A stretch of DNA of 64,000 bases. It comes from Rhodospirillum centenum SW (GTDB lineage: Bacteria; Pseudomonadota; Alphaproteobacteria; Azospirillales; Azospirillaceae). Shown piece by piece: positions 32,001 to 46,807 of the stretch. How positions within the stretch are numbered: the first letter of the stretch is position 1; every line of letters starts with the position of its first letter. The stretch is taken from contig NC_011420.2 in assembly GCF_000016185.1 (NCBI RefSeq), forward strand, positions 3,961,501-4,025,500, read 5' to 3'. Under the pieces are notes generated by a model. The model had not been told where the DNA came from, searched no databases, and saw only the letters and a program-made list of their open reading frames with translations. Both the position numbers and the translations under genes were made by a program.

Positions 32001-33103
32001 GCCACGTCGGCGCCGGTCAGATCCGCCAGCCGCTCGACCAGGGTGATGCCCTCGGCGGTCGCGGCCACGTCGCAGCCATAGAGAAGGATGTCGGCGTCGG
32101 CGGTCAGGCCCCCGGCCCAGGCCGCGACGGTATCGCCGGCCGTGTCCAGAGCCGCAGTGTCCAGGGTGGCCGTGCCCAGGGTCATGCTGCCCGGCGTGCC
32201 ATGGGCGAAGAGGTGCAGGGCGGCCACGTCCTGCTGCCCGGCCAGCAGGCCGGTGATGGCGGCAAGACCGTCCTCACCCGCTGCGACGATGTGGACCTCC
32301 GCCCCCGGCAGCGCGCCGGCGGCCAGCGCCTGCGCCTCCGGCACACGCGCGTCGATCACGACGAGGGTACGGCCGGCGGGGCCGTCACCGACGGGAACGG
32401 CCGTTGCCTCCACGCCGGTGAGGTCGGAGAGCAGCGCGAGCCCGTCGCGGGCGATGGGGGTCGTGTCCGCGCCATGGACGGAGATGCGGGCACCGTCGGC
32501 CAGGGCGTCACGCCAGCCGGCCACCGTGTCGGCCTCGGCCTGGACATGCGCGGGGCTGATCCCGGCATCGGTGGTCAGGGCCAGATGCAGGTCCTGGATA
32601 CCGTCATAGCCGGCCAGCACCCGGCCGACCTGGGCCAGGGCGTCCCCGCCCGGGGTCAGGACATGGACCTCCGCATCGCGCGGCAGCCCGGCCAGGATGG
32701 CGGCGGTGCCAGGGGCGGCGGGGTCGATGACGGCGACGGTCCCGGCCGTCCGGCGGGCGCCGGCCTCGACCGCGGGCGGAACCGGGCCGTCACTGTCGCC
32801 GCCGGTGGCCTGCTGCGGCCCGGCGACAGCGGTGTCACTCCACCCGGTGGCAGCGGGATGGTCCGCCGTCGGGTCGGCGCCATCGTGCTGGTCGGGATGG
32901 GGATCGACGAACGCATCGGCGGTGACGACCGCGGCATCGAAGACCAGACGCGGCTCAAGGCTCAGCAGGGTGCTGTGCAACCCGATCGGCAGGCCGGGCC
33001 GCGGGGCGTGCTGCGGCCGTGACGGGCTGCATGCTCCGCGATGCGGTGAAAGAAAACTAACGACGAGCCGATGTAAACCGATCGTAAACGTCTTATGCGA
33101 CAT
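16997..33103 (-). CDS. Giant DUF4347/cadherin-like/Ig repeat adhesin, 5368 residues
   Basis: Order: a basic head; LEPRLVFDA at 49-57 (LEPR-XLL-type motif of large exported repeat proteins); two tandem DUF4347-type domains (about 122-245 and 246-395); about thirty 90-130-residue cadherin-like/VCBS repeats joined by VNDAP-type linkers; He_PIG Ig-like repeats (SWLSFDPATG.FSGTP); a Gly/Ser/Thr-rich hinge; one more Ig-like domain; and a tail ending in FAAQLRAAGQAGRLSESRAL. No RTX nonapeptides were noticed, and no LPXTG or autotransporter barrel is seen. The uninterrupted 16 kb frame shows it is maintained. The likely role is a surface adhesin or biofilm protein exported by the proteins encoded downstream. 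The start has GGAAG almost touching the ATG, so the exact start is uncertain. Confidence 0.9.
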   Translation of the reverse strand: MSHKTFTIGLHRLVVSFLSPHRGACSPSRPQHAPRPGLPIGLHSTLLSLEPRLVFDAAVVTADAFVDPHPDQHDGADPTADHPAATGWSDTAVAGPQQATGGDSDGPVPPAVEAGARRTAGTVAVIDPAAPGTAAILAGLPRDAEVHVLTPGGDALAQVGRVLAGYDGIQDLHLALTTDAGISPAHVQAEADTVAGWRDALADGARISVHGADTTPIARDGLALLSDLTGVEATAVPVGDGPAGRTLVVIDARVPEAQALAAGALPGAEVHIVAAGEDGLAAITGLLAGQQDVAALHLFAHGTPGSMTLGTATLDTAALDTAGDTVAAWAGGLTADADILLYGCDVAATAEGITLVERLADLTGADVAASDDDTGAAARGGDWTLEVATGPIEARLPFGRATLAAYGGLMAAPTATLLTQTVTYTEGDASVALGDIVVTDPDGDTITATLTLAAPAAGALTTSGSATYNAGTGVWTVTGTAAEVNAALAAVSFTPAADNDQDTTVSVSITDASGEATLTGTITLDVTPVNDAPVLSGSAALDTIAEDASSPTGTSIDALAGRLTVTDADSSSQRGLAIIGTDEANGSWWYSTDGGTSWTALGARDADQALVLSADGTGQNRVRFIPNTDFNGTATLTVRAWDGSDPLVLSGDTVKITGSGGSTAFSAATATLTQTVTAVNDAPVLTPVTLSLPSVEEDLAGGAVNGLPVANLHTTADGTVLVTDVDGTTSFGIAVTGFSIPPALAGQIQYSTDGGATWTAVPALGANQALVLEATARIRINPAAEAAGEATFSFVAYDGSAGYSSGTVVDLTLPAHSGALAPFSAASSTAILAVTPVNDAPALATHAFTLNEGTTLALTGAHLSVTDPDNTADQITYEVTQLPTAGALLRVVGGVTVTLTVGDTFTQAEVDAGTILSYRHTGPQLSADGSDSFKVTVRDGAGGIATDQTVTVTLRDVNAPISVQGTTISVTERIGAEATDFTSIPLTGGGLNISDADGDPARITVTFNSLPDPAVGRLQINTGSGYQDITAGMTVTLAGVTGPLRFIHTGAEPDGALAGTSFQVTVEDNNPSLPESTATTTVNLVVTPVNDPPAQSGVALSNTFTVAEGGQRTINPTFLDVGDPDSDHDAATYTLRSLPAHGQLYLDGVLLGVGATFTQAQIDSGRLAYRHLGDEPNGTAVPDDSFEYTLRDGDGAEAPGTFRIDVTPTDDPTVVTAGQISLRVGDSATVDTGDLDATDPDTPDSGITFTLATGALPAGARFERTTAPGVAVTTFTLAEIRAGTIRVVHTGGAGDAGSYAIPVTVSDGTTTTRPAALTVTLVTQDQIDSGGGTPDGAGSAVPHLTTNEPLIVAEDNSGTTGGIRITDQFLKVEDSDTAAAGLTYTLTAGTAHGTLWLDKDGNGSYDAGEALGTGDSFTQADIDAGRLFYDHDGSETTADGFSYTVSDGAGGTLTETSFAITVTPVNDDPTISQTTPSITLAEQDGTGAATVVVLGTAHFQAADVDSVSGEQLIYVLETAPAGGWIEVDGIRIGAGSRFSADQLAAGKVTYHHDPGHEPDGTAAADDSFSVYLTDGGTRADGSEARSATMTVQIDVTPVNDAPGASGRSVTLAEGATVVLAADRTGGSDSDIPAQSLTYTLESLPTTGTLYTDWTDANGNGTVDAGEATAVTVGSTFTPGTLVYVHDGSETFADSFNFKVSDGTLSSGTATVSLSIRPVNDAPAGLVQTGATVLEGERIQITAAALNIVDASKNLNLSDPDNTANQVQLRITAVPTAGRLILNRGSGDVTLGVGSAFTAADLAAGYLSYEHDGSEHHTGISFTYTVADGTPTGIVAGNVFNIAVTPVNDLPTLILPSATTTGEAATIPLTGIRVGDIDAGQGTGDITVTLAVLHGTLSFGAADTALTNSGATGKGTPALTLTGTPAEVQAILDTLTYTAPDDITATVTDTLTVTVDDLGNSGADPDATPGVTRTAGDATGDTTRQHVGGSVAITVRPVNDAPVLTSADFGTTLTVNEDTDLILGGVTVSDTDVEAGQVQVTITATNGTLRLLNHAGLTQVGSGDLGTGAASLVFRGTLADVNAALAAGNVVYRATADFNGSDTVSFSVNDLGNTGSGGPRISAGNTSVTIGVLPVNDPVSFSAPAALQGLEDTQLSVTPVTISDVDAGNQLKVTLVLTNVTDVGPSHDVGALSFGGGVTATDSGASATSRTYQLTGTQAQIQAALAGLKFSAAANDYGVYNLAITYDDQNQGAVGGSGTQSTGTTNVEITIGARNDDPVVSVNGTALSGSGRNTGVLAAMTEDVGAFTALKDAGGNPLLLSDADVDQLGGGLLTVTLSLAGGGHGDLRFASALAAGITVDAITGGGAGSDFTSIRLTGSLADLNAALAALEYRPDADFNTGQYDETLVLTVNDNGNTAPTVGAVAGTAGSGDITRQIAITVTAVNDAPVLTAPTTSFTVTEAADATGGTDLAITGLQISDAADLVGNKANGIIQVTVVATNGTLRLTDPTSGLSSYTGNKSGSLTLKGTQTAINAVIDSLVFNTGDDPAETVTVTVTVNDLGLDGTGGALSDQKTLTIDITPENDPPTITAPATVTVSEDPGSPFAFTGGSKISVADPDIRNNHLVVTLAVEDGALGVTASGTAAVTGNNSGTVQITGTRTDVNNTLATLKYTPLANANRLNADGSDGADQDLDLTITVSDQGYGKDNVADAGDVETRTKTVAIVITPVNDAPVLTAPASQSVTENTQTAITGLAIADADHLDTGFDTPPMRLTLTAQHGTLTLSGAAGITVVSGDNTGTLVVTGTMSALNAALSGGSLRYQPATDYTGDDSLGVTISDEGNEGGAALTDSRTIALTIGGTNDAPVIAVGGDSDGASTATLAEDATLVFSAANGNAITFSDPDQVDASTANTQLTLSVDKGTLTLGATTGLTFVTGDGTADQTIVVKGQLADLQAALAGLTYSAGADENGTAALTITVDDPGNLTTSGGPRTATHTVALTVTPVNDPPTVEAGADGTTAEDTSLALGTITLGDLKDLTIGSQGGTAAATPVTVTVAVTPGTGTLTLTDNPGTAGFDETTLVTGGNGTASLTLSGTVAQINDALGQITFAPTADFSGTATLTVSVNDAGNGGSGGPLTASDTRTITITPVSDTPDLTVAGSTNPAGTVAVSGDEDTWIDLRTLVGETDDDGSETLALTIAGLPAGFQVRYGGTAASGGTTVTVSGGSATIPNGALSAGNTIWIKAPSDWNSTRDNGGAATTLTLTASSKDGSAAAATRSASIDLTVTAVEDPPTATPDAKAITEDATPDTVGGNAITDATADSDPDEPATGTLSITGAKFSADAGMTAVDAAGITLAGRYGSLLIKADGSYTYTLDNNDPDTDALAQGQTVTEVFTYRLSDGTAGGEATATITITVTGTNDAPVFNGGTITTAEDTDRTLTAADFSVTDVDSGASPVQAVKVTALPGGGDLYLNGSRITATGVTVTRAELDAGKLVFRPTANSNNDVAGSDYTSLGFQVSDGIAWSAANIVTVDVTAVNDAPTDTGSGAVTLPAVAEDTTAPAGATVDSLFAGRFSDATDQVAGGSAANGLHGIAIVGYTADAAKGQWQYRLDTDNDGTPDGAWQALTDRTAASALVLGRFDALRFVPVADYNGAAPSLTVRLAEDGGTPPVGGTAVDLSGAGATGGSSRYSATTLTLATGVTPVNDAPTATSTTPVTLPVAAEGTPSPAGSSVSALFAARFSDIDGDSFAGVAVVANTADAAQGVWQWSADGTTWTAIPTTVADTSAVVLSPSALVRFVPASDFSGTPGTLDVRLWDGTGGFTQGAGRDISASIGGTGGFASDVNRLSLGIGITPVNDAPVVTVTPATAAYTEQAATTPVLSGLTLSDVDDTHLAGATVTIAAGRVAGDTLSVTAAHGITGSYDASTGVLTLTGTATLAQYQAVLRGVGFSSSSDDPTADGTNPTRTLSIQVTDANADGSGAATSATASVTLTVTPVNDAPVLSAGGSGAASTYLEGGTAATLLPTLDIADADDTRIAGATVTIASGLTAGDTLSVTAAHGITGSYDAATGVLTLSGSATLAQYETVLRSVTYSSTSLSPTATAATRSITVTVTDADSDGAGAATSAPLTATVTLTSVNEAPVLGGTGSVDFTENGSAVALAPGLTLTDVDSTRIAGAVVQITSGLTSTDVLSLTPSAGITGSYDAATGTLTLTGTATLAEYLSVLRGVTYANTGDSPAELGTARTVSITVTDDGGASARTSATVTVNVAVTEVNDPPVAENDRTLNIAEDTTGSPLSIQAPTDLDGDTLTVTVTELPTGGTVYSGATAVKVNDTLTVAELQALTFTPSADTEGSAGRFSYTVTDGRGGSDSSTLTITVGGSNDAPTLANAIPDQQTDEDAPYSYTVPAGTFADIDVGDTLTYAATLGNGSPLPSWLSFNSATRTFSGTPLNEHVGTLTLRVTATDSGGASVSDSFVLTVRNVNDAPELVQPIPAQSALEDQRYSYQVPARTFTDVDVGDSLSYSATLAGGAPLPSWLSFDPATRTFSGTPANADVGSLTVTVTARDRAGATATATFTLSIANVNDAPVAGVPLPDRIATEDSPFSATLPSGAFRDIDAGDRLTLSATLADGSPLPSWLSFDPATGRFSGTPGNDDVGRIAVTVTATDRAGATASAGFAITVENTNDAPVPATRLPDRIATEDQPFSATLPAGAFRDIDLGDTLTLSATGPGGTPLPSWLSFDPATGSFSGTPLNEHVGPLTLTVTATDRAGATASQTFVLTVLNVNDAPDSADATVTLDEDTTAALGAGVFAFADVDRGDTLSAVIITSLPARGSLSLDGVPVSAGQRIAAASLGGLTYAPPANANGTPFASFTFSVVDLSGAADPTPQTVTLVVRPVNDAPVLVTPPAGTTVQAGSPLRLAVPPGSFTDVDEGDVLTLSATLADGSPLPSWMSFDPATGSFSGIPTNIAVGTVTLVVRATDQAGASATAEVSVVVEPEPAPPLIPTDPTSPTDPTAPTEPTGPGTGGGDNGGLITGGGSSGGGTGGTGGTGGDGGLITGGGSSGGTGGTGGTGGTGGTGGDGGLITGGGSSGGGSSGGGDITVPGGNGGGSGSGNDGGIIGGPGTLPPERPGSAGGITLGRGIIGGSEGEVRLFVAGSIGNQVMLQDTTYQFQVPRNVFRHTNPNERLTFEARQPDGSPIPAWLTFDADTLTFSGTPPIEVAGAIDIQVIARDSEGNEAAAVFRIIVTTEDETIPVSQGQQPPAQAPDVPPASAEAPAGNDQPERPAGAATGEETNGTGDSAALGFDGAYALLAGADRLPAPDPALAGRTGFAAQLRAAGQAGRLSESRALLASLSRTGGPLPPAAA
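17740..18035. repeat. Gly/Ser/Thr-rich hinge repeats in the adhesin
   Basis: The encoded linker repeats DGGLITGGGSSGG about three times, separated by runs of GGT. The DNA is a mosaic of short imperfect repeats. It is a flexible linker between the Ig-like array and the last folded domain. Confidence 0.8.
18160..19960. repeat. Near-identical Ig-like (He_PIG) repeats
   Basis: Units of about 280-300 bases encode SWLSFDPATG.FSGTP cores. Copies near 18220, 18860, 19170, 19470 and 19780 share long DNA stretches (for example the block coding for SWLSFDPATG). A sixth, diverged copy is near 17480. Such DNA can expand or contract by recombination. Confidence 0.8.
20280..21490. repeat. Three long VCBS-like repeats within the adhesin gene
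   Basis: Three successive units encode variants of HGITGSYDASTGVLTLTGTA followed by AQYxxVLRxVxY. They are similar in DNA as well as protein, with long shared stretches near 20490, 20900 and 21320. This indicates recent duplication within the gene. Confidence 0.75.
31925..32740 (-). other. Tandem DUF4347 domains in the adhesin head
   Basis: Two related domains lie one after the other. The second keeps HLFAHG (H301) and LLYGCD (C344), a His/Cys pair placed as in caspase-like clan CD folds. The first aligns by its ADLTG-type helix and VAGWRDALADGA segment, but has HLALTTD and SVHGAD, so both positions are lost. It looks like a duplicated and inactivated copy. Confidence 0.7.
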
Positions 33104-33209
33104 CTTCCGGATAATCCCGCATCGAGCAGTCGTGCATACGGTATAAACCGGACCAGAGGGCGATCCAATCGATTTTGATAAAATCCAATCTGTTTGCTAT
33201 GTTAATGCA

Positions 33210-33219
33210 TTGCGAATGA
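33210..33219 (-). promoter_or_regulatory. Half-site shared with Fur-like boxes, before adhesin gene
   Basis: TTGCGAATGA is the same core as in the elements before sigma factor 2 and the second TonB receptor. It lies about 107 bases upstream of the adhesin start. Only one half of an inverted repeat is clear, so the assignment is tentative. Confidence 0.35.
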
Positions 33220-33245
33220 CCGCGTCTGGCATCTGTATAAAAAAT

Positions 33246-33259
33246 TATATTGCAATATA
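33246..33259. promoter_or_regulatory. 14-base perfect palindrome
   Basis: TATATTGCAATATA reads the same on both strands, in the gap between the adhesin and the PAS gene. It could be an operator for a dimeric regulator; none is encoded beside it. Confidence 0.4.
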
Positions 33260-33341
33260 TCTCGGTGAATTCGATCTATGCCCTGTGAATGCTTCATGAA
33301 TTTCGCAGATCAGATCTTGTGCTTCACAGAGAAAGCAAGAA

Positions 33342-33356
33342 TTAACGCTTTCTTAA
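33342..33356. promoter_or_regulatory. CtrA-type binding site
   Basis: TTAA-CGCTTTC-TTAA matches the alphaproteobacterial CtrA consensus TTAA-N7-TTAA exactly. A third TTAA follows six bases later (33363-33366). The right part also forms a hairpin, AGAAAGC/GCTTTCT. The site is about 240 bases from the adhesin start and 265 from the PAS gene. Confidence 0.55.
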
Positions 33357-33621
33357 GACAGATTAATGTTTCGGTATCTAGTGTTTGTCTGACAAAGCAC
33401 TTGGCCTGGCGACGGGTGGGCAGGGCCGAATGACGGTATTCGTATCAAAAGCAACCGTTCTCTCCGGCCTGCCAGGGCGCTGACCGTAGACGGATCTCTG
33501 CCATGTCGTTCCGGAAGCCTGCAGCCCGGAGAATGGTGCGCTGTCGTGGCGCCCTGGCCTCGTCAGGGCACAGGGCCGACTCAGTGGCCGGGTGCGCCTT
33601 TTCCTTTTGTTACCTACCCGA

Positions 33622-34218
33622 ATGGGCTATGACTTTAAGAATAGAGCAAGGTGGACTGAAACCGTGGATTCCCTCTGTGACCGGGTTGCTCTCGGCTTCC
33701 GCTGCAACCGGACGACCCTCTTCGCCGGTTACTATGCGGGCCTTCTTGGCCGGGGCCGCGTTCCCCTTCGTTCCGACCTCGACCTCGACAGGATGCGCAG
33801 CATCCTCGACAGTTTCGTGGTCCTGGAGGTGGAGGGACCGGGCATGGTCCGCTTCCGCCTTGCCGGCACGCGGGAGCGGACGCGCTACGGCTTCGAGGTG
33901 ACCGGGCTGAACTACATGGATTTCGTGCCCGAGGCCCGGCGGAGCGATGCCTTCTCGGCGTTCGACCGGATGGTCCGGACCCCGTGCGGCATGTATGCGC
34001 TGATCCGCTCGCGCACCGGCTACGGTCGTGGGACCTTCAACGAAGCGTTGGGATTCCCCTTCCGCAGCGATCACAGCGGCCGTCTCCACCTCGTCTTCCA
34101 GAGCAACGACATCGATTTCGACGAAAGCCGGGTGCTGGAGGCGGATCCCCTGGCCCTGCACCACACCGTGGAGGGGCGCCGGTACATCGACATCGGTTTC
34201 GGCCTGCCGTCCTTCTGA
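33622..34218 (+). CDS. PAS_5-domain protein
   Basis: 198 residues from ATG 33622; a GTG at 33592 would add ten hydrophobic residues. The segment VPLRSDLDLDRMRSILDSFV, followed by VRFRLAGTRERTRYGFEVTG, matches the stand-alone PAS_5 family common in Rhodospirillales. There, single PAS proteins of about 170-200 residues occur in many copies. No output domain is present, so it may act by binding a partner. It lies divergent from the adhesin and upstream of a chemoreceptor. Ligand and role are unknown. Confidence 0.75.
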   Translation: MGYDFKNRARWTETVDSLCDRVALGFRCNRTTLFAGYYAGLLGRGRVPLRSDLDLDRMRSILDSFVVLEVEGPGMVRFRLAGTRERTRYGFEVTGLNYMDFVPEARRSDAFSAFDRMVRTPCGMYALIRSRTGYGRGTFNEALGFPFRSDHSGRLHLVFQSNDIDFDESRVLEADPLALHHTVEGRRYIDIGFGLPSF

Positions 34219-34554
34219 TCCTGTCTGTCCGCCGCCGCGACACTGCGGGCAGGGGCGGCGGGCAAGGGCAGCGGGCAAGGGCGGTGGACAGGGGCGCCGG
34301 TGCGGTCCTGCGCGCACCCGCCGCAGCCGGGGGTGGTGCCATCGGACAGGCCGATGTGCCGCTCTGCTTCCCGCGGAGAGCTTGGGAAATCCGCTCAAAT
34401 GCGGCACTCTGCCAGTGACGGGCGTCACGTTATGGCAGGGTTGCAAATAAAAAACCGCATTGCCGTCAGGGTAATTCTTCGTCAAGCGTAACCGGAACCC
34501 GCATCACTATTCGACGAAGGCTGCAAGCCGCGTCGACGGTCCTGGAAGCTCTTG
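34219..34554. other. Intergenic region, GC-rich repeats then A/T-rich leader
   Basis: The first part has short G/C-rich direct repeats (GGGCAAGGGC-like units, about 34250-34290) and a possible 7-bp hairpin CCGCCGC/GCGGCGG without a T-run. The part from 34410 on is A/T-richer and should hold the promoter of the following receptor. No small gene is seen. Confidence 0.4.
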
Positions 34555-36564
34555 ATGTCCGAACAGCCGCGCCTCCCCGCCGACGCCCTCATCCTGCCCG
34601 ATACCGCGACCCTGGATCTGCTGCGCGAGGCGGCCCCGGTGATCAGGCACCGTCTGCCCGCGATCCTGGACGATTTCTACCGTCAGGTGGCCGCCGACCC
34701 CCGGCTGGCCCGGCATTTCCGGACGCCGGCGGAGATGGAGCGGGCGAAGAAGGCACAGCTCGCCCACTGGACCCGGCTTGTCGGCGGCGACCTGGACGGG
34801 GACTACCGCGCGTCCGTGCAGCGGGTCGGGCGGCGCCACCTTGCCGCCCATGTCCCGCCTGTCTTCTACATGGCCGGCTACCTGCACCTGATCCGGGGCC
34901 TGCTGGATGCCCTGGCCGAGGACCGCGGCGGCCTGCTGACCCGGCGCGCCACCCTGCGCCACATGGTGCGGCTGCAGAACGCCGTCGTCTCGGCCGCCAT
35001 GGCCGACATGGCGCTGTCGCTCTCCACCTACTGGGAGGGGGACGCGGAGAAGGCGCTGGCCGATGTCAACCATATGGTGGACAGCATCGGCGACCAGTCG
35101 GTCGAGGTGGTGAACAGCATCCACGACTATACCGACGACCTGGCCCGCGCCGTCGGGTCGCTGACGACGGTCTGCGGCGAGGTGGGGGAACGGGCCACCC
35201 AGGCCTCCTCGGCGGCGGCGCAGTCCTCGGCCGCGGCAGAGACCGTCGCCGCTGCGGCGGAGGAACTGGACGCCTCCATCGCGGAGATCGCGCACCAGGT
35301 GGCGCAGTCCACGGGTGCCGCGCGCGACGCCATCGACCGCACCGGCAAGGCGGCCGAGGCGGTGCGGACGCTGGGCGAGGCCGCCCGCGAGATCGGCGGC
35401 ATCGTCACCCTGATCGGGGACATCGCCGCCCAGACCAACCTGCTGGCGCTGAACGCGACGATCGAGGCGGCGCGGGCCGGCGAGGCCGGCAAGGGCTTCG
35501 CCATCGTGGCCGGCGAGGTCAAGGCCCTGGCGACCCAGAGCGCCCGTGCCGCCGACGAGATCTCCGGCCGCATCGCCGCCATCCAGGGCGAGACGGCGCA
35601 TGTCGCCACCGCCATCGAGGCCATGGCCGGGGTGGTCCACCGGATCGAGGATGTCGGTTCCTCCATCTCCGCCGCCGTGGAGGAACAGGCTTCCGCCACC
35701 GGGGAGATCGCCCGCACCGTGGCCGAGGTGGCGGACGCCGCCCGCTCGGTGACGGAGCTGATGGATGCCGTCGTCACCTCGACGGACCTGGCGAAGCGGG
35801 CGGTCCATACGGTCGAGGCCAGCACGGAGCATCTGCGCGAGGCGATCGACGACCTGCCGCGGCACCTGGTCCGCTCGATCCGCACCTCCTCCCGGCTGGC
35901 CGACCGCCGGGTGGACCATCGCCGCCCCGTCCTGGTGGACGGCATGCTCACCGTTGAGGGGCAGCAGCGGGCCTGCATGATCCACGACCTGTCCTGCCAC
36001 GGTGCCGCCCTGGATGCGGCCGCGCCGCCGCCCGCGGGGTCGCCCGTCACGCTGCACGTTCCGCGCCTGGACCGCACGCTGGAGGCCACGGTCGTCGCCC
36101 TCTCCGGCAGCTGCACGCTGCACCTGAAGTTCGCCGGCTCCGGCCTCGACGCCGCCGAGGTTGAGCTGGTGGCGACGGAGTCCGCCCGCCAGATCACGCT
36201 GCTCGCGAAGCAGGACCACGCCGCCTTCGTGGAACAGGTGGAAGCCGCGGTGGCCGGTCGGATCGAGCTGGACGCCGCCGACCTCTCCACCCACCACACC
36301 TGCCGGCTCGGGCGCTGGTACGACGCCGTGAACGACCCCGACACGCGGGCGCTGCCGTCCTACGTGGCGCTGGCCGATCCGCACGCCCGGGTGCATTCCG
36401 CCGGCCGTCGCGCCCTGCTGGCCCATCTGGCCGGCCGGGACGCCGAAGCCGCGGCCGCGGTCCGCGACATGCGGGATGCCTCGGACGCGGTGATGCATCT
36501 GCTCGACCGGCTGGCGGAGGAATGCGCCAGCCTGCGCGGCCACGCCCAGGCCGAAGCGGCGTGA
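34555..36564 (+). CDS. Globin-coupled chemoreceptor with PilZ and CZB domains
   Basis: 669 residues from ATG 34555; a TTG lies one codon earlier. No membrane helix is present, so it is soluble. Order: protoglobin domain (about 8-160), linker, MCP signalling hairpin (about 190-440, with [20 protein letters not shown]), PilZ domain (about 460-550, RVDHRR then DLSCHGA) and a C-terminal zinc-binding CZB domain (about 565-650, CRLGRWY and PHARVH). These parts suggest sensing of O2 or haem ligands, c-di-GMP and zinc or redox state. No adjacent che genes are seen. Adaptation sites and signalling partners are not evident from the neighbourhood. Confidence 0.9.
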
Positions 36565-36974
36565 AGGGGCCTTTTGCAAAATCCGTCCATGGGCGCCGCT
36601 GTTGAACAATAGTATTTCCATCACAAAACGGGGCGCGATTCCAGTGATGATGACGTATTTTCCTAATTAAGAGCGAGACTGTCCTGCCCATCATCTGGTC
36701 GGAGATACGTTAACTCTACGGCTCAGTGGCGGTTCAAAACCCTGCAGCCGGGCTCATGGCCGGCGCGGCGACCTGCCTTGATGGTGAAGTGAAGAAAATG
36801 GGTTCTGTCCATGCATTTGCCCAGATTGCAGACGCCGTCAGTTAGGGACTGGTTTTCTTGATTCGGGCTATCCGGTCGCGGTCCGATCACGTCCACATTC
36901 CGAGCTTGAATAAAGACTCATCCCCAGCTTCAATTCCTTTAAGCACGAGCTTCAAGAAGCTGATGAGGGCGCGC
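36565..36974. other. A/T-richer gap before the SIR2-HerA module
   Basis: 410 bases. No convincing gene, tRNA, integrase remnant or flanking repeat is seen. Composition falls abruptly after the chemoreceptor gene and stays lower through parts of the following two genes. It presumably holds the promoter of the defence operon. Confidence 0.4.
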
Positions 36975-38297
36975 ATGAGTGATACTGACAAAGAGCGGAC
37001 CTTCCAGTTTCTGCGGAACGGCGATGCCGATCCATCGGAACTCGACTGGAACAAGGGGATCGAGAGCGCCCGCCAGGCGATTTCCGAGGCCATGAACGCC
37101 AAGAATATCGCGTTTTTGCTCGGCGCTGGATGTTCCTCCCTGATGAGGGACGAAAAGGAACTCGGCATTGCGACCATGGCGCCCCTGGCCAAGGAGTTCT
37201 GCGGGGAAACCCTCGCGGCGCGGGCGGCGGGATTCTACGGTGATCCGCCGGTCGTCGGCGCTGCCCCGGCGCCGTGGCGGCTGACCAAGGGCGAACTCGA
37301 CTATCTCGACGCGCTCGGGATCGACCTGGCGAAGGACTACAGCCGGAACCTGGAACGCTTGATGGAGGTGCTGTTCGCGCAGCGGTTCGTGCTGCGCCAG
37401 AGCGAGAATCCCGATCTTCACCCCTACCGCGCTGTTCTCGACGGCATCATCAAGAAGGTCCAGGATTTCCTATGGACCCGTGTCACCCAAGGGGCCTTCG
37501 CTACGGAGGGCGACAGCACCGTGCGCGACCTCTACGAGCGGTTCTACAAGAAGCTGGTCCTGCGAGATCGGTCCTTGCCCCGGCCGTGGGTGTTCACGAC
37601 CAACTACGATCATTTCAGCGAATTGGCGATGGATCGGCTGGGCATTCCCTATGCCAACGGCTTTTCCGGCGTCGTGGAACGTCGCTTCAACCCGGCGATC
37701 TTCCGCTATGCCCTGGCCGAGCAGCTCGACGTCGCCAGCCGCAAGTGGACCGCCGTCGACGCCTTCGTCTATCTCTGCAAATTGCATGGCTCGGTCACTT
37801 GGACCGAGGACGATCATGGCCTGTTCCCGATCAAGGAGGTCTGGCCGCCGGAATCCACGAACCAGATGCTGATCTATCCGACGCCGGCGAAGCAGAACTC
37901 TTCGCTCGGCTCGCCCTACGCGGACCTGTTCCGGGAATTTCAGTCCCGGATCGTGCGCGAGCAGAGCGTTCTCATCACGGCGGGTTACGCCTTCGGCGAT
38001 GAGCACCTGAACAATATCATCTACCAGGCGCTGACGATCCCGACGTTCCGTCTGGTGATCTTCGCGGCGCCGGATACGGCCGGTGAGATCGCCAAGCTGC
38101 GGGCGCTGCGCGACCCGCGCATTTGGATCATTGGAGGCGACGGTCCTGCCGAGGGAACGAGGGCGCACTACTTCGACATGATCGTCGAGCATTTCATGCC
38201 GCAGCGTCCCAGCGACAGGATCGATGACGCCGTTCGCAAGGTGTTGTCCGAACTGGCGCCGAAAAGGGACGACGAGCCGAAGGATGGCGAGGCATGA
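36975..38297 (+). CDS. SIR2-family NADase of SIR2-HerA defence module
   Basis: 440 residues from ATG 36975 (GAGGG just upstream); an open extension of 39 residues is not supported. SIR2 motifs: LLGAGCSS (48-55), TTNYD (208-212), KLHGS with His271, and GYAFGDEH (337-344). Together these mark the SIR2_2-type NADase fold, not a protein deacylase with zinc cysteines. It overlaps the HerA-type ATPase gene by four bases. SIR2-HerA pairs are experimentally known anti-phage systems that form a large complex with nuclease and/or NAD+-depleting activity. GC content is lower than in the flanks, suggesting acquisition. Confidence 0.9.
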   Translation: MSDTDKERTFQFLRNGDADPSELDWNKGIESARQAISEAMNAKNIAFLLGAGCSSLMRDEKELGIATMAPLAKEFCGETLAARAAGFYGDPPVVGAAPAPWRLTKGELDYLDALGIDLAKDYSRNLERLMEVLFAQRFVLRQSENPDLHPYRAVLDGIIKKVQDFLWTRVTQGAFATEGDSTVRDLYERFYKKLVLRDRSLPRPWVFTTNYDHFSELAMDRLGIPYANGFSGVVERRFNPAIFRYALAEQLDVASRKWTAVDAFVYLCKLHGSVTWTEDDHGLFPIKEVWPPESTNQMLIYPTPAKQNSSLGSPYADLFREFQSRIVREQSVLITAGYAFGDEHLNNIIYQALTIPTFRLVIFAAPDTAGEIAKLRALRDPRIWIIGGDGPAEGTRAHYFDMIVEHFMPQRPSDRIDDAVRKVLSELAPKRDDEPKDGEA

Positions 38298-40261
38298 GCC
38301 ACGACGATCGCAAACGCGCGATCGGCAAGGTGGTCTCGGTCGCGGCCGACCGCTTTGTCGTGGAGATGCACGTCGGCACCGACAACTTCACGGTCGTTGG
38401 CTTCGACGGTGTGCATTATGTGGCGCGGCTGGGATCGTTCCTGATGATCCCGTCGCAGTCGGAATATGTCGTGGTCGAGGTTGTCGGCCTGCGTGAGCGC
38501 GACGCGAGCACTCCATCCGAGCGAGGCGACTTCGACCGGGCTGGCTCCTCAAAATATCTGGATGTGGTGCCGGTCGGCATGTTGCCGATGCGTGGCGGCG
38601 CGTTCCGTTTCGGTGTGTCCGTTTTCCCGTCTCTGTATGCGGACGCACTCTATGCACTGGACGGCGAACTCGATCGCATCTTCGAGACCGAGGCGGCCGT
38701 CGAGCCGTCAGTCGGCCCGGATGGTGGCGCCTGCGAACCCGAAGGGGCCACGCGCTATCGGGTTCTGCCCATCGGCAAGTCGGTGGTGTTCGAGAACTAC
38801 GACATCAAGGTCCGGCTGAACGAGTTCTTCGGCGGTCATGTCGCCGTCCTGGGCAATACCGGCAGCGGCAAGTCCTGCACGGTCGCCTCGGTCTTGCAGT
38901 CCCTTTTCAGCAAGCCGGAGGAGCATCACGCCCGCGGCGCGACCTTCGTCGTCTTCGACGTCAATGGCGAGTATCACGCCGCTCTGGCCGCTTCCGCGAA
39001 GGAGGGAGCCATCGGGGTCGAGCGCGTCGTCCTCGACGGCACGGCGGCTGGCTTCCGTATGCCGCATTGGTTCCTGGAGATGGCAGAATGGGAACTGCTC
39101 TTGCAGGCCAGCGAGCGAACACAATTGCCGGTTCTTCGGACGGCGTTAGGTCTGACAAGTCTCTTTCATGCCAATACGCCAGAAGCTCTGGCGCTGCGCG
39201 AGCACTTTGTCGCCACCTGCATCATCGAGTGTTTTCGAGGGGCAGATGGCGACTCCCCCGTATCGAAATTTCAGCGGGTCGTCTCCCTTCTCCAGAAGTA
39301 TCCGACAAAAGACCTGAATATGGATCTTCTGAAGCGCTTCAATCCCAATTTTCAGTATGGAAATTTTTCGGGGAACAAACAATCGGCGTTTCTGGACGAA
39401 GTGAGAAACAAGCTCCGGGAGGACGTGCCCTTACCAGCCTATAATCGGACACCATTCTCTTTTGATGAGCTACACGAGTGTCTCGACTTCGCGATCCTCT
39501 ACGAGGAGGCTCACGGCAATCGCCAAATCCGAGACTACTGCTCGTCCATGGTCACGCGGCTCAGATCCCTCCAGGAGAGAACAGAATATGCCTTTCTGCG
39601 TCACGAAGGAGCTGACGTTGACGCGGCCGTAAGCGATCTGGAGTTTTTGACCAACATCGTCGGTCTGCAAAGGGCGGCCGGAGATTCGTTCACCAAACGC
39701 AATCAGATCATTATTATTGATCTCAATTCCGTCGAAGATGAAATCGTTGAGCTGGTCAGTGCGGTCATCGCACGCATGCTTTTTCGATTTCTTCGCCATG
39801 CGGAACCGAGAAACCGCTTCCCGATACACCTACTGCTCGAAGAGGCTCATAGATATGTCGCCTCTACGCCGTCTCGCTTTTCCATCGACGCCACCAAGAT
39901 TTTCGAGCGCATCGCCAAGGAAGGACGCAAATACGGCATGTTCGTGCTGCTGGCGTCTCAGCGCCCGAGCGAACTGTCCAAGACGGTTCTCAGCCAGTGC
40001 TCCAACTTCCTGGTTCACCGAATCCAGAATCCCGACGATCTCTCCCAGATTCGCCAGATGACTCCGTTCATCTCAGAGTCGGTCCTGAAGCGGTTGCCGT
40101 CATTGCCTCGGCAGCACGCGCTGGTGTTTGGAACGTCGGTCAATCTGCCGACGACCTTCAAGGTCAGGGAGGCATCCCCGCGACCGCATAGCGACGATGC
40201 AGCCATTGTCGATCTATGGTTCCACGAAGAAGGTCGAATTATTGAGAGTTCGTTTGGATAA
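38294..40261 (+). CDS. HerA-type ATPase/translocase of SIR2-HerA defence module
   Basis: 655 residues. An N-terminal HAS-barrel-like beta region (1-100) precedes the Walker A motif GNTGSGKS (187-194). A Walker B-like LLLEEAH lies near residue 513, and an ASQRPSELSKTVLSQCSNFL segment is typical of the DUF87/HerA hexameric ATPases. It is translationally coupled to the SIR2 gene by an ATGA overlap. The middle of the gene (about 39.3-39.9 kb) is markedly A/T-richer than chromosomal neighbours. It probably forms a hexamer that scaffolds SIR2 subunits. Confidence 0.9.
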   Translation: MSHDDRKRAIGKVVSVAADRFVVEMHVGTDNFTVVGFDGVHYVARLGSFLMIPSQSEYVVVEVVGLRERDASTPSERGDFDRAGSSKYLDVVPVGMLPMRGGAFRFGVSVFPSLYADALYALDGELDRIFETEAAVEPSVGPDGGACEPEGATRYRVLPIGKSVVFENYDIKVRLNEFFGGHVAVLGNTGSGKSCTVASVLQSLFSKPEEHHARGATFVVFDVNGEYHAALAASAKEGAIGVERVVLDGTAAGFRMPHWFLEMAEWELLLQASERTQLPVLRTALGLTSLFHANTPEALALREHFVATCIIECFRGADGDSPVSKFQRVVSLLQKYPTKDLNMDLLKRFNPNFQYGNFSGNKQSAFLDEVRNKLREDVPLPAYNRTPFSFDELHECLDFAILYEEAHGNRQIRDYCSSMVTRLRSLQERTEYAFLRHEGADVDAAVSDLEFLTNIVGLQRAAGDSFTKRNQIIIIDLNSVEDEIVELVSAVIARMLFRFLRHAEPRNRFPIHLLLEEAHRYVASTPSRFSIDATKIFERIAKEGRKYGMFVLLASQRPSELSKTVLSQCSNFLVHRIQNPDDLSQIRQMTPFISESVLKRLPSLPRQHALVFGTSVNLPTTFKVREASPRPHSDDAAIVDLWFHEEGRIIESSFG

Positions 40262-40315
40262 TCCAAGTTCGTTGATGCGGCATGCAACGGTAGGGCCGCG
40301 ACAACCCGATTCTCT

Positions 40316-40978
40316 TCAGAACGGGCTGCCGGCGGGGGAGGGCGGCCGGGGGGCCGCGGGGGCCAGGGTCCGGGCCAGCTCCGGCGTGACCGTGACCTCG
40401 CCGCCCATGTCGTCCAGCAGCAGCAGGTCGCCGGCGGTGATGTCGAAGAGCGCCCCGTAGAGGCTCAGCCGGCCCGCCGCGACCCGCTCCCGCACCCAGG
40501 GGAAGGTCATCAGGTTGGCCAGCGACAGCCGCGCCACCTCCCGCACCGCCGCGGCGAAGGGGTCAGGCCGGCCGGCCACCCGGGTGCGCACGCCGTCGGC
40601 GATCCGCATCCAGTTGCCCAGGAAGTCGCTGTTCCGGTCGCCGTCCAGCAGCGCCCGGATGCCGCCGCAGCCGGTATGACCCAGCACCACGACATACGGC
40701 ACCTCCAGCCGCCGCACGGCGAACTCCAGCGCGGCCGAGGTGCCGTGATAGTCGGCGTTGGGGGCGTAGGGCGGCACCAGATTCGCCACGTTGCGGATGA
40801 CGAACAGGTCGCCCGGCCCGGCGGAGAAGATGGACTGCGGGTCCACCCGGCTGTCGCAGCAGGCGACCACCGCGGCACGCGGATGCTGGCCGGTGAGGGC
40901 AAGCTGGCGGTAGCGCTCCTCCTGCTCCGGGAAGCCGGTGGTGCGGAAGCGCAGGAATCCGTTCAGCAACTCATGCAT
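40316..40978 (-). CDS. Beta-class carbonic anhydrase
   Basis: 220 residues, the usual length. Zinc ligands Cys40 (in ACCDSRVD), His101 and Cys104 (in LGHTGCGG) are present, with the Asp42/Arg44 dyad. It interconverts CO2 and bicarbonate in the cytoplasm. The C-terminal tail is Pro/Ala-rich. It converges on the HerA gene and is probably monocistronic, with its promoter in the gap after 40979. Confidence 0.93.
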   Translation of the reverse strand: MHELLNGFLRFRTTGFPEQEERYRQLALTGQHPRAAVVACCDSRVDPQSIFSAGPGDLFVIRNVANLVPPYAPNADYHGTSAALEFAVRRLEVPYVVVLGHTGCGGIRALLDGDRNSDFLGNWMRIADGVRTRVAGRPDPFAAAVREVARLSLANLMTFPWVRERVAAGRLSLYGALFDITAGDLLLLDDMGGEVTVTPELARTLAPAAPRPPSPAGSPF

Positions 40979-41345
40979 TCGACCTGATCCTTCGTCGGGC
41001 GGCCGGGGACCCGGTCGCGGTCGGCGGGCTTTCCGGGCCTGCCGTACATCCCCTGGGCCCCACCGGGACCACGCAGCCTAGGGATGGAACAGGAATACCC
41101 GGCGGATCAAGTCGCCACGCGGCATTGCCGCCCTGCGGCGGGGCGCGCCCGACCAGCGGAGCGGCGCCGTTGCTGGACCCGGGCTACCCCTAGGGCAACT
41201 GGCCGCACCCCACCAGCCCGAAGGAGCGGGGAGGGATTGCGATAAGTCAAATGTCGCGGCCGGCCACTTCTTTAGATTTATTCAAGATCAAATCCGGCCG
41301 GCATCCATCGGAAGTTCCGGCGGGACCAGAAGGGAGATCCAGACC
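40979..41345. promoter_or_regulatory. Divergent promoter region, carbonic anhydrase and peroxidase
   Basis: 367 bases without a gene. Near the peroxidase, TTATT-CAAG-ATCAA (41278-41291) matches one half of an FNR/Anr-type site exactly and the other half in three of five bases. FNR control of di-haem peroxidases is known in other bacteria. Nothing else distinctive is seen. Confidence 0.35.
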
Positions 41346-42383
41346 ATGCTCCGATCCCTGTTCCTCGGCGTCGCCTTCGCCGCCCTCGCCATCGGCCCGG
41401 CGGCGGCCGACCCGCTGCTGGACGAGGCCCGCAGCCTGTTCAAGCCGCTGCCCGCCACGGCTCCGGCGATCAAGGACAACCCCGCCACTCCGGAGAAGGT
41501 GGACCTCGGGCGCATGCTGTTCTTCGAACCGCGTCTGTCGTCCAGCCATCTGTTCTCCTGCAACTCCTGCCACAACGTGGCGACCGGCGGCGTGGACGGG
41601 CTGGAAACCTCGATCGGTCACGGCTGGGCCGCCGGCCCGCGCAATGCCCCCACCGTGCTGAACGCCGTCAACAACGTGGCGCAGTTCTGGGACGGCCGCG
41701 CCAAGGATCTGAAGACCCAGGCCAAGGGGCCGATCCAGGCGGCGGTGGAGATGAACAGCACGCCCGACCGGGTGCTCCAGGTCCTGACCAGCATGCCCGA
41801 ATACAAGGGGCTGTTCGCCAAGGCGTTCCCCGGCGAGAAGGAGCCCGTCAGCTTCGACAACGTGGCAAAGGCCATCGAGGTGTTCGAGGCGACGCTGATC
41901 ACGCCGGACTCGCCCTTCGACCGTTTCCTCGCCGGTGACACCAAGGCGATGACAGCGCAGCAGAAGAAGGGGCTGGCCCTGTTCATGGAGAAGGGCTGTT
42001 CGGCCTGCCACAACGGCGTCAATGTCGGTGGGCAGGACTATTTCCCGTTCGGCGTCATGGAGAAGCCGGGGGCGGACGTGCTGCCGGCCGGCGACAAGGG
42101 CCGCTTCCAGGTCACCAACACGGCGACCGACGAATATGTCTTCCGCTCGCCGACCCTGCGCAACGTCACCCTGACGGCGCCCTACTTCCACTCGGGCAAG
42201 GTCTGGGATCTGCGCGAGGCGGTGGCTGTGATGGGCAACGTCCAGCTCGGCACCGTGCTGTCGGAGGAGGAGATCGACGCCATCACCGCCTTCCTCGGCT
42301 CGCTCACCGGGCGCCAGCCGCGGATCGAAGTGCCGATCCTGCCGCCCAGCACGCCGGCGACGCCGAAGCCGGTCACGCAGTGA
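41346..42383 (+). CDS. Di-haem cytochrome c peroxidase (periplasmic)
   Basis: 345 residues with a signal peptide (1-21, ending AAA). The two haem-binding motifs are CNSCH (72-76) and CSACH (218-222), and the conserved peroxidase core has LGRMLFFEPRLS and FRSPTLRNVTLTAPYFHSG. It reduces H2O2 in the periplasm with electrons from small c-type cytochromes; the MauG/CcpA family is the wider group. The last five codons and stop are duplicated just downstream. A GC hairpin follows. Confidence 0.93.
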   Translation: MLRSLFLGVAFAALAIGPAAADPLLDEARSLFKPLPATAPAIKDNPATPEKVDLGRMLFFEPRLSSSHLFSCNSCHNVATGGVDGLETSIGHGWAAGPRNAPTVLNAVNNVAQFWDGRAKDLKTQAKGPIQAAVEMNSTPDRVLQVLTSMPEYKGLFAKAFPGEKEPVSFDNVAKAIEVFEATLITPDSPFDRFLAGDTKAMTAQQKKGLALFMEKGCSACHNGVNVGGQDYFPFGVMEKPGADVLPAGDKGRFQVTNTATDEYVFRSPTLRNVTLTAPYFHSGKVWDLREAVAVMGNVQLGTVLSEEEIDAITAFLGSLTGRQPRIEVPILPPSTPATPKPVTQ

Positions 42384-42406
42384 CGCTGCAACCGGTCACG
42401 CAGTGA
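42369..42406. repeat. Short direct repeat over the peroxidase stop codon
   Basis: CCGGTCACGCAGTGA occurs at 42369-42383 and again at 42392-42406, a 23-base tandem period. The first copy ends with the stop codon. It looks like a slippage duplication. Confidence 0.8.
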
Positions 42407-42420
42407 TCCCGCAGACCCGG

Positions 42421-42437
42421 GGGGCGGGCTCCGCCCC
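42421..42437. terminator. GC-rich hairpin after the peroxidase
   Basis: GGGGCGG-GCT-CCGCCCC is a perfect 7-bp stem with a 3-base loop, 38 bases after the stop. It lacks a T-run, so it may act weakly or protect the RNA end. Confidence 0.4.
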
Positions 42438-42530
42438 GCTCCCTTCGGGCCGCTGGACCTTCGCATAGCTTGGACCCGGGGCCGCGGCGTCTATGTTGAA
42501 CAGGCGTCGCGTCCCTGGAGCGGTCCCGCC

Positions 42531-43481
42531 ATGAGCAGCGAACCGGCCCCGCCGCCGCCGGCAGGGCAGCCTGCCATCACCCATTTCGCCTTCAGCCACC
42601 GGGCCCTGACCCTGGACGGCGTGACGTTCACCCTGTCGCCGCAGTCGCGGCAGCCGGTGATGCACATCGCCATGGGCGACATCAAGGGGGCGATCGATCT
42701 CGCCCGCATCGCCGAGACCTTCCAGATCGCCGTCGGCAGCGCCGATGACCGGCTGCTGAAGATCGTCGAACGGTCGCTGCGCCATGTCCACCGGATCCGC
42801 AACGGCGACCGTATCCCCAATGAAATCCTGGACGGCACCGCCTCCTGGCCGGTCGAGGAGCGGCACCGCCGGCTGGCGGCGCTCAAGATGGCGGACATGG
42901 TGATCCGGCAGATCCTGGGTGGCGCGCAGGCGGAACTGCCCGGCGACGACGCGACCGACCAGGTGCGGACCCGGATCAAGGAGGCGGCCGGCGACGTGGC
43001 CGAGAAGATCGGCCTGCCGCGCTCGCGCGACTGGGAGGCGCTGGACCGGATCGAGACCCTGACCAATGAGATGGGCTTCATCGAGGCGCTGCGCGACTAC
43101 TGGAATCCACTGTTCGACATGCCGCGCAAGCTGCGCGCGGTGCAGAAGGCGAACCGGCGCGACCGCGACCTGTCGGACCAGCTCGGCAGCGCGCTCACCC
43201 TGATCAAGGCGCCGGTGGCGCAGATCCGCGCCATCTTCGACGACATCGACCGCACCATCGCCGATCCCGTCGCCGCCTTCCGCAGCTACGAGCAGACGTT
43301 GAAGGTCCTGCGCGCCCGGCGTGACAGCCTGCATTTCGAGACCCTGCGCTGGGGCGAGGTGCCCGGCACCTGGCGGACCCTGCGGACCGATGATGACGCA
43401 GGGGTCGTCCAGGCCTCGCGTCTCTATCGGTTTCTGGTGCAGAACTACATGCGGACCACTGCCTGGGTCGGTGCCGGCTGA
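42531..43481 (+). CDS. Unknown soluble helical protein, first gene of three-gene cassette
   Basis: 316 residues from ATG 42531. There is no signal peptide or membrane helix. The head (about 15-75) is beta-rich (THFAFSHRALTLDGVTFTLS); the rest is strongly helical with many charged residues. I recognise no domain. Its stop overlaps the next start by one base (TGATG), and the third gene follows with a four-base overlap, so the three are one translational unit. Codon use matches the chromosome. Confidence 0.75.
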   Translation: MSSEPAPPPPAGQPAITHFAFSHRALTLDGVTFTLSPQSRQPVMHIAMGDIKGAIDLARIAETFQIAVGSADDRLLKIVERSLRHVHRIRNGDRIPNEILDGTASWPVEERHRRLAALKMADMVIRQILGGAQAELPGDDATDQVRTRIKEAAGDVAEKIGLPRSRDWEALDRIETLTNEMGFIEALRDYWNPLFDMPRKLRAVQKANRRDRDLSDQLGSALTLIKAPVAQIRAIFDDIDRTIADPVAAFRSYEQTLKVLRARRDSLHFETLRWGEVPGTWRTLRTDDDAGVVQASRLYRFLVQNYMRTTAWVGAG

Positions 43482-44005
43482 TGACGACGACGATTTCCCT
43501 GCTCATCGTGAACGGGCTGCTGCTGGTAGCCTGGATGCTGGGCGTGCTGCACCGGCAGCGGCTGCTGGGCACGGCGCAGGTGGAACTGAAGGGGCTGAAC
43601 GAGAAGATCACGCAGTCCGAGGCAGAACTGAACCAGACGCAGATGTTCCTGGAGGATTCGCGCCTGCGCATGGCCCTGGCCGACGACCAGCGCGCCCGCC
43701 ACGCCAAGCTGGTCGCCGGCATGCAGGCGGAACTCGCCCGGCTCTCCAGCCAGAATTTCGAGATCATCCACCAGCTCGGCGAACCGGCGAAGGGCAAGAC
43801 CCCCTATGCCGCCGAGCTGTTCGAGACGGGCATGGGTGACCGCCCGATGCCGAAGGTCTTGCAGGGCCTGACGCACATGGCCATCGTGCATGCCGAGGAC
43901 GATGCGGCGGCGCGGCGGCAGATCGAGATCGCCTTTCCGCCGCGCTCGCTGTTCCGGCCGAACACCATCACCCGCATGGTCTCCGCAGACGATACCGGCG
44001 CATGA
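43481..44005 (+). CDS. Membrane-anchored coiled-coil protein, cassette gene 2
   Basis: 174 residues. One N-terminal helix (about 4-23, SLLIVNGLLLVAWMLGVL) anchors it, followed by a coiled coil (about 30-95, VELKGLNEKITQSEAELNQT) and a small C-terminal domain with AEDDAAARRQIEIAFPPRSL. That domain resembles the end of the next protein, so the two appear paralogous. The function is not recognised; it may pair with the next protein at the membrane. Confidence 0.75.
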   Translation: MTTTISLLIVNGLLLVAWMLGVLHRQRLLGTAQVELKGLNEKITQSEAELNQTQMFLEDSRLRMALADDQRARHAKLVAGMQAELARLSSQNFEIIHQLGEPAKGKTPYAAELFETGMGDRPMPKVLQGLTHMAIVHAEDDAAARRQIEIAFPPRSLFRPNTITRMVSADDTGA

Positions 44006-44604
44006 CCGAACTGACCTGGGTCCTGCATCTCGCGCTCGTCGTCGGCGCCTTCGTGATCGGCGCCAAGGCGATCGACGCCTGGATGTCCGCCTCGCGCACG
44101 GCGCGCGAGGCGACGGCCAAGGTGGCCAAGCGCAAGGCGGCGCTCGATGCCGTGAAGGCGCGCATCGAAGCCATCGCCGTCAATGTCGAGGACGTGATGC
44201 CGCAGCTCGGCGAAGCCGAGGCGGACCGCCAGCAGATGAACGAGGAAGCGGGCGCGTTGCGCACGAAGATCGAGGCCCTCACGAAGCGGCGCAAGGACCA
44301 TCTGATCGTCTTCGACCGCCGCACCCTGCTGGAGGACGCCCTCTATGAGGTGACGGTGACCAATCCCGAGTTCCTGGAAGCCTCGACCGGGCGCAACGCC
44401 AGCGACCCGCTGGTCAAGAGCTGGATGGAGGGGCGGGTCTACCTTGTCGCCGCCCTGGATTCGGACGATGCCGCGCGCCGCTGCACGGCCCGCTTCCCGG
44501 TGTCGCTGGGCTACCGCGTCACCCAGAGCGTTCCCTTCCGCCTGCGCGGCGGCTCCGGACGCAGACCGGCGGAAGCCGGGAAGGCTTCCGCCGACAGCGT
44601 GTGA
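44002..44604 (+). CDS. Membrane-anchored coiled-coil protein, cassette gene 3
   Basis: 200 residues. An N-terminal membrane helix (about 5-22, TWVLHLALVVGAFVIGAKAI) and a long Lys/Ala/Glu-rich coiled coil (about 28-98) precede a C-terminal domain with LDSDDAARRCTARFPVSLGY. The last part aligns with the preceding protein. It converges on a chemoreceptor gene with a 22-base gap. A role in a membrane or signalling complex is possible but not shown. Confidence 0.75.
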   Translation: MTELTWVLHLALVVGAFVIGAKAIDAWMSASRTAREATAKVAKRKAALDAVKARIEAIAVNVEDVMPQLGEAEADRQQMNEEAGALRTKIEALTKRRKDHLIVFDRRTLLEDALYEVTVTNPEFLEASTGRNASDPLVKSWMEGRVYLVAALDSDDAARRCTARFPVSLGYRVTQSVPFRLRGGSGRRPAEAGKASADSV

Positions 44605-44626
44605 GGAACCGGACCGGGGGGCCGGC

Positions 44627-46645: not shown

Positions 46646-46785
46646 CGTTGTCCCCCTCGTTGCTCCGCCCGGCGTCGGGACTACGGTCGTCACCCCCGGC
46701 ACCGTCGGATGTCGCAAAAATATACCTTTACGAGACTTCGGCAAGTCGAAGGGGCTGCGTAACTTAAAGGGGGGTAAATTTTATC

Positions 46786-46807
46786 TTCAAAAAGCGGCCT
46801 TTTTGAA
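46786..46807. other. Perfect hairpin TTCAAAAAG-CGGC-CTTTTTGAA
   Basis: A 9-bp stem with a 4-base loop, between divergent genes. It is not positioned to end either gene, so it may be an operator or the end of an unannotated RNA. Confidence 0.45.

Follow-up and report, generated by a model that had tools for sequence, protein, structure and literature searches.

How is a defence system of the SIR2-HerA (Nezha) type switched on, and which of its parts decides what it recognizes? The question is raised by a gene pair in a 64,000-nucleotide (nt) stretch of DNA from Rhodospirillum centenum SW (contig NC_011420.2, positions 3,961,501 to 4,025,500; here called the window, part of a 4.36-Mb single-contig genome), in which a SIR2-family gene for a putative NADase of 440 amino acids (aa) at 36975 to 38297 is followed by a gene for a HerA-type ATPase of 655 aa at 38294 to 40261, both on the plus strand and with open reading frames (ORFs) that overlap by 4 nt. 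The pair is a genuine SIR2-HerA module of foreign origin and of an ordinary kind; its surprising parts are visible only by comparison, namely, a coupled exonuclease gene in most of the fetched relatives and a HerA cassette that is swapped in one piece. We read it, with a probability of about 0.72, as a horizontally acquired two-gene module in which NAD+ depletion upon infection would halt phage replication, with recognition presumably by the HerA cassette. This reading draws on the genes, their motifs and coupling, the foreign composition, the recent spread, the loss of identity at 40237, and the exchange of the HerA middle, together with papers on homologues for a 12:6 complex and NAD+ depletion; from these we infer that the copy was trimmed from a larger block, would act without an exonuclease, and would let its cassette decide what is sensed or admitted.

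Alignment of module copies placed the exchangeable cassette at 39100 to 39885 on the plus strand, with the sharpest divergence at 39130 to 39720 (approximately residues 280 to 476). The comparison covered 28 copies whose SIR2 was at least 79% identical (L055, L059, L060, L062, L063, L066, and L068 to L071 were excluded, having no SIR2 in the stretch or one below 79%); 22 carried allele A, as does the window, and 6 carried allele B (L053, L054, L056, L057, L058, and L064). In 120-nt bins across 39135 to 39735, the six B carriers were 39 to 69% identical to the window at the DNA level, while the flanking bins inside the genes were mostly 79 to 100% identical in the same copies. Cassette DNA identity averaged 90.5% within A and 90.8% within B but 51.9% between them; for the backbone (36975 to 38900), the corresponding values were 90.9%, 91.5%, and 91.2%. 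As proteins, the two middle alleles are 30% identical. Copies that otherwise differ little exchange the HerA middle as one block: L056 and L065 share 99.1% of their backbone (SIR2 plus the HerA N-terminal part) and 51.7% of their cassette, and L057 and L048 share 96.4% and 51.7%, respectively. The right edge lay near 39885 in all five pairs examined, and the left edge lay at about 38890 to 38960 (L056, L064, and L057) or 39050 to 39100 (L053 and, less sharply, L054). The GC content at third codon positions is 60.9% in the cassette versus 79.9% in the HerA N-terminal part.

In a tree built from the backbone, allele B, the rarer one with 6 carriers, requires 6 changes, 4 of which are forced by strongly supported branches, a number of swaps that is approximate because the backbone may itself recombine; a single B clade was rejected (approximately unbiased test, p = 4e-59). 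Among 39 HerA proteins (L070, with its HerA frame split into two ORFs, and the partial L071 were left out), 24 were closer to A and 15 to B, with distant backbones in both groups and with L066, L068, and L134 far from both. Both alleles thus look old and seem to have moved repeatedly between backbones. It is rather unlikely that the two cassettes reflect mere old divergence of a tolerant segment with no functional meaning: the segment is indeed less conserved than the flanking core between distant relatives too, but each allele is about 90% conserved internally, on differing backbones, and the edges are visible. A separate observation concerns a Bradyrhizobium plasmid (NZ_CP088291.1; L097), on which SIR2 is present, the HerA match stops at residue 286, right at the cassette start, and transposase genes lie nearby.

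In the structural model, which was used solely for helix order, the cassette consists of consecutive helices, flanked on either side by a strand of the ATPase core, and is modelled more confidently than other parts of the protein. When the window HerA is aligned to chain 8xau_A, chain residues 251 to 371 (query residues 294 to 468) are left unmatched, and R284 and K287 fall within the cassette position of that chain, provided that it follows the numbering of the paper. In the HerA complex of this chain, the effector is described in an excerpt of the source as binding the HerA HAS domain (PMC11291478). Placed at the helix bundle and DNA-entry gate of a solved HerA ring, the cassette may set recognition or gating. 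It would then face something outside the complex, either DNA or a phage factor, which fits because SIR2 and the HerA N-terminal part are alike with A and B.

The assignment to the SIR2-HerA (Nezha) type rests on gene content, motifs, and PADLOC models. The SIR2 protein carries TTNYD at residue 208 and LHGS at residue 270, and by motif position N210 and H271 are its putative catalytic pair, with roles taken from papers on homologues; HerA carries Walker A (GNTGSGKS, residues 187 to 194; 38852 to 38875) and Walker B (LLLEEAH, residues 513 to 519; 39830 to 39850), both encoded on the plus strand. PADLOC models matched over nearly the full length (PDLC04090 on SIR2, 793 bits, residues 1 to 439; PDLC04102 on HerA, 991 bits, residues 1 to 650), and Pfam agrees (SIR2_2, E 2.4e-8; HerA central domain DUF87, E 1.7e-21). 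A preliminary description made from the DNA alone had named the pair as coupled SIR2 and HerA genes with intact motifs at 36975 to 40261, and the identity, the coupling, and the intact motifs were borne out. The solved SIR2 chains 8yhx and 8j4u align with the window SIR2, TTNYD and LHGS motifs included, and the nearest solved chains to HerA, by sequence and by fold, are those of SIR2-HerA and HerA-DUF4297 systems; the fold comparison rests on a low-confidence model. The pair shares gene order, the SIR2 Asn and His motifs, and the HerA Walker motifs with the known systems (solved as 8j4u, 8su9, and 8yhx; Vibrio Nezha as described in part of PMC11559045), whose structures are among the nearest solved chains to the window proteins. 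It differs from them in that the window copy scores below NCBIfam cut-offs, most fetched relatives couple a third gene, for an exonuclease, and the HerA middle occurs as exchangeable alleles. With HerA-DUF4297 it shares a HerA homologue with a helix bundle and an insertion (PMC11291478, in part); its partner, however, matches SIR2_2 and not a DUF4297 nuclease. Because the curated cut-offs are not reached, we do not file the pair under the NCBIfam equivalogs SIR2_antiphage and HerA_antiphage.

By analogy with homologues, SIR2 would be the NADase effector and HerA a ring ATPase assembling with it, as in the 12:6 complex; infection would activate the complex, NAD+ would be depleted, and phage replication would stop, with the HerA cassette presumably determining what is sensed or let in. 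Excerpts of a study of Vibrio Nezha report that SIR2 N168A or H227A abolished immunity, that deletion of herA removed resistance to several phages, and that the mechanism is NAD+ depletion (PMC11559045). For a Staphylococcus system, HerA binding is reported to open the SIR2 NAD+ pocket (PMC12198126, in part); the same excerpt of this 2025 article gives SIR2-HerA nuclease activation as "Unclear," also names phage DNA degradation as a mechanism, and describes the trigger of the sister system HerA-DUF4297 as remaining unclear. Since two-gene systems work, the window pair would be expected to act by NAD+ loss without an exonuclease of its own.

What the window lacks became apparent from 37 relative loci (36 found by scanning named genomes, and L072 of Niveispirillum), many of which are near-copies and hence not independent. 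An exonuclease gene stands beside SIR2-HerA in 29 of them, downstream in 27 and upstream of SIR2 in two (L059 and L070). Its product is about 297 aa long, matches Pfam RNase_T and a PADLOC DEDDh model, and carries the motifs DVETTG, HNAxFD, and HRAxxDC. The downstream gene overlaps herA in 25 of the 26 measurable cases, by exactly 14 nt in 22 of the 26. The nearest relative, L036, offers an example at its positions 12036 to 12049, where herA finishes (tail DDIF) and the exonuclease gene begins (MTSSD) on the same 14 nt, read in two frames. The acidic tail of the relatives' HerA (DDDIF or similar) was considered as a mimic of the single-stranded DNA-binding protein (SSB) tail, and this was set aside, as the same bases encode the overlapping exonuclease start. 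On the other side, AbiEi-AbiEii (matched by PADLOC as AbiEi and AbiEii) adjoins SIR2 directly upstream in 21 of 37 loci, whereas a search of the window for AbiE at E 1e-15 found nothing. In a Sinorhizobium sp. RAC02 plasmid (L095, 4954 to 6279), a DarT-like ADP-ribosyltransferase gene and a macro-domain gene lie directly upstream of SIR2-HerA, in the place that AbiE occupies in other relatives. No paper on a SIR2-HerA exonuclease operon or on HerA cassette exchange was found in a literature search of titles and abstract starts, with subscription papers and preprints outside its scope.

ArdC and ParB genes lie near the module in many relatives, and a tyrosine integrase gene does in some. Haematobacter plasmid pOT1-2, typed as conjugative, has the order ParB, DUF2958, metallopeptidase (other strand), DUF6088, AbiEii, SIR2, ATP-binding protein, and 3'-5' exonuclease. 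Elsewhere, such blocks may be integrative conjugative elements. The proximity of so many copies to ArdC, ParB, and recombinase genes, and the typing of two of three plasmids as conjugative, would also suit a module that mainly guards its element or its cell against competing mobile elements (plasmids or conjugative elements) and not against phages. Antiphage systems, however, often ride on mobile elements. A homologue moreover blocks phages (PMC11559045, in part), and we consider this alternative improbable.

The window copy matches only part of this block. BLAST identity to close relatives sets in between 36954 and 37041 and is lost at or near 40237, within the last herA codons and 24 nt ahead of the end of the stop codon. 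At the left end, approximately the first nine codons depart from those of L036, with the start and sense of the family kept. At the right, the last 7 residues of HerA replace 24 to 34 other residues of close relatives, leaving the window HerA without their acidic tail; the right junction, 40238 to 40315, supplies these last codons and the stop, reaches the carbonic anhydrase gene, and has no match in the relatives' blocks. Many loci share the end at 40237 in BLAST, and it was considered as a precise, transposon-like end; this was rejected. The break belongs to the window copy, because relatives run on into the longer HerA tail and the exonuclease gene. Comparison of the module flanks turned up no fragment of AbiE, ArdC, or the exonuclease, and no coupled exonuclease gene accompanies the pair in the window.

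The simplest reading is that a larger mobile defence block was cut down to the window copy; alternatively, the block may have gained AbiE and the exonuclease around an earlier lone pair. A further possibility, which appears improbable as well, is that the pair is a decaying remnant, nonfunctional without the relatives' HerA tail, exonuclease, and AbiE neighbours. It would account for a HerA that stops 7 residues past the last position common to close relatives, with its acidic tail gone, and for the weakness of the best exonuclease homologue elsewhere in the genome (36% identical, E 1.5e-12). Both frames are intact, however, and their motifs are kept; the distant relatives L066 and L068 likewise end without a tail; and a two-gene SIR2-HerA works in another bacterium (PMC11559045, in part). 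We retain the trimmed but potentially active module as the preferred reading.

The exonuclease family extends well beyond this system. The idea that it is specific to SIR2-HerA was rejected, as homologues occur in 388 plasmid records. In a sample of 385 genomes drawn from the class, 14 carry the exonuclease, which adjoins HerA in two and GajA in none (within about 1.5 kb); in one genome (G096), SIR2 and the exonuclease are on different contigs. Six plasmid loci were chosen from 60 listed, and the exonuclease gene stands directly before gajA-gajB in three of them (H8, H12, and H19), after dinB in one (H7), and beside other neighbours in two (H11 and H41). The three gajA-linked arrangements, all on alphaproteobacterial plasmids, span L090 5992 to 10859, L092 6007 to 10847, and L093 5947 to 10850; PADLOC confirmed GajA and GajB for H8 and H19, and identities of 74% and 64% did so for H12. 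The DEDDh exonuclease may thus be a component of certain Gabija operons that has escaped notice. The likeness to Gabija (GajA-GajB) goes no further, since GajA and GajB were not found at the window module and the only thing in common is the accessory exonuclease family, which is itself absent from the window copy. In an exonuclease tree of 43 rows (30 beside HerA, 3 beside GajA, 1 beside dinB, and 9 others), several of them long and uncertain, the HerA label requires four changes, whether gains or losses, all forced by strongly supported branches. It thus seems that the exonuclease is a portable accessory and that its neighbours changed more than once.

Several points weigh against our interpretation, beyond the possible recombination of the backbone. 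An excerpt of a review table gives the mechanism of Nezha as phage-genome degradation instead of NAD+ loss (PMC12948488). The scores of the pair fall under the cut-offs of three NCBIfam antiphage equivalogs (137.5 of 500, 221.1 of 800, and 198.5 of 850 bits), the overall quality of the HerA model is low (predicted local distance difference test, 54.6), and the altered tail could impair HerA. The exonuclease family also occurs widely away from the system: homologues number 388 plasmid records at E 1e-20, most with less than 60% identity, versus 7 for HerA at E 1e-100, and 12 of the 14 exonuclease-bearing genomes of the class sample have no HerA within 1.5 kb. Among the 7 plasmid HerA records, three adjoin an exonuclease gene (H64 to H66, with exonuclease matches H4 to H6), two do not (H67 and H70, the latter with a truncated HerA), and the other two were outside the comparison. 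Eight of the 37 relative loci are without the exonuclease gene (L039, L041, L042, L060, L061, L063, L066, and L068), although the L042 contig stops 46 nt past the match, and the viral contig L134 carries SIR2-HerA without it.

The distribution of the module points to recent mobility. HerA was found at E 1e-60 in 2 of 82 genomes of the family, that of R. centenum itself and a replicon of Niveispirillum cyanobacteriorum (corresponding to NZ_CP025613.1; 98%), and SIR2 at E 1e-100 in 4 of the 385 class genomes. The 36 loci of the named-genome scan are mostly from Alphaproteobacteria of several orders, with two in Actinobacteria (L066 and L068) and one labelled Algoriphagus (Bacteroidota) that is a short contig of a metagenome-assembled genome (MAG) and may be mis-binned; HerA is 93 to 98% identical in 20 of them. 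The nearest DNA, L036, is from a Rhodobacteraceae MAG and is 98.8% identical to 37002 to 40237 on the plus strand (BLAST; 3236 bp, no gap). Since identity across orders reaches 98.8%, the module has spread horizontally in recent time, as judged by DNA comparison. Among viral contigs there was one SIR2 relative, at 64% (L134), which entered only the exonuclease-neighbour check and the HerA protein comparison.

Composition agrees with a foreign origin. The module has a GC content of 59.6% versus 70.6% for the window, and only 5 of 608 tiles of the same length were as low, every one of them overlapping the module, which makes it the most GC-poor block of its length in the window; at the 500-nt scale, 33000 to 33499 is lower still (48.6%). 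The module lies, as had been described, as a lower-GC block between a protoglobin chemoreceptor gene (34552 to 36564, plus strand) and a carbonic anhydrase gene (Pro_CA; 40316 to 40978, minus strand), both identified by Pfam. The chemoreceptor combines protoglobin, MCP signalling, PilZ, and CZB domains in a single protein, and a di-haem cytochrome c peroxidase gene lies beyond the carbonic anhydrase gene. The 410-nt left flank (36565 to 36974) is a low-GC gap (52.9%) that occurs once in the genome and has no match to the relatives' island genes.

The preliminary description had further portrayed the module as a lone insert without flanking integrase or repeats, at what might be a cryptic integration hotspot. 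A Pfam scan limited to the five neighbouring genes found no integrase among them, and just one repeat pair, a weak inverted one (28 nt, 71% complementary), spans the module. The module is lone locally, with no PADLOC match at E 1e-5 in 10 chosen neighbouring ORFs (33592 to 49150), but not as a kind, as relatives carry the larger block of AbiE, SIR2, HerA, and exonuclease. The suggestion of a hotspot gained no support. Carbonic anhydrase homologues occur in 32 of the 82 family genomes at E 1e-50, and chemoreceptor homologues in 22 of 82 at E 1e-120 (with up to 14 candidates scored per genome), R. centenum included in both counts. Both flank genes were present in three other genomes (G045, G049, and G077), on separate contigs of draft assemblies. 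In 18 to 20 kb around the carbonic anhydrase gene of nine family genomes (L073 to L081), the chemoreceptor was absent from six at E 1e-15 and partially matched in three (41 to 56% identity, mainly in the signalling part). Neither the adjacency of the two genes nor an empty site or alternative cargo was found in any relative examined, with 82 family genomes searched and the genus represented by one genome, and occupation of the same site in all relatives was likewise not seen. A foreign low-GC block within a gap is what a hotspot would offer, but the window has no tRNA, flanking repeats are not clear, the five genes scanned include no integrase, and no relative examined shares the flanks, so that no variation is visible; we regard a hotspot at this site as very unlikely.

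Elsewhere in the window, a minus-strand ORF of 5368 aa (16997 to 33103), just behind a low-GC stretch (about 49%) at 33000 to 33500, contains DUF4347 and many cadherin-like and Ig-like repeats in the two pieces scanned and probably encodes a giant surface protein. A weak HerA-like ATPase match (25% identity, E 5.1e-5) lies at 60018 to 60491 on the minus strand. Outside the window, the genome has a second SIR2_2 match (G000:C1:3816858-3817334; L001) that, at E 7.7e-22, is stronger than that of the window SIR2.

Type I restriction systems swap recognition domains, and the exchange of the HerA cassette invites comparison with them. We tentatively propose, as a possibility that falls somewhat short of even odds, that alphaproteobacterial SIR2-HerA switches specificity via one HerA cassette, with SIR2, the exonuclease, and all other parts of HerA unchanged, and that the DEDDh exonuclease is a portable accessory also serving Gabija. 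An exonuclease common to several systems bears on whether they have a third, optional part that two-gene catalogues leave out. The cassette may carry the trigger that switches SIR2-HerA on; natural matched pairs such as L056 and L065 appear to differ mainly in this one segment.

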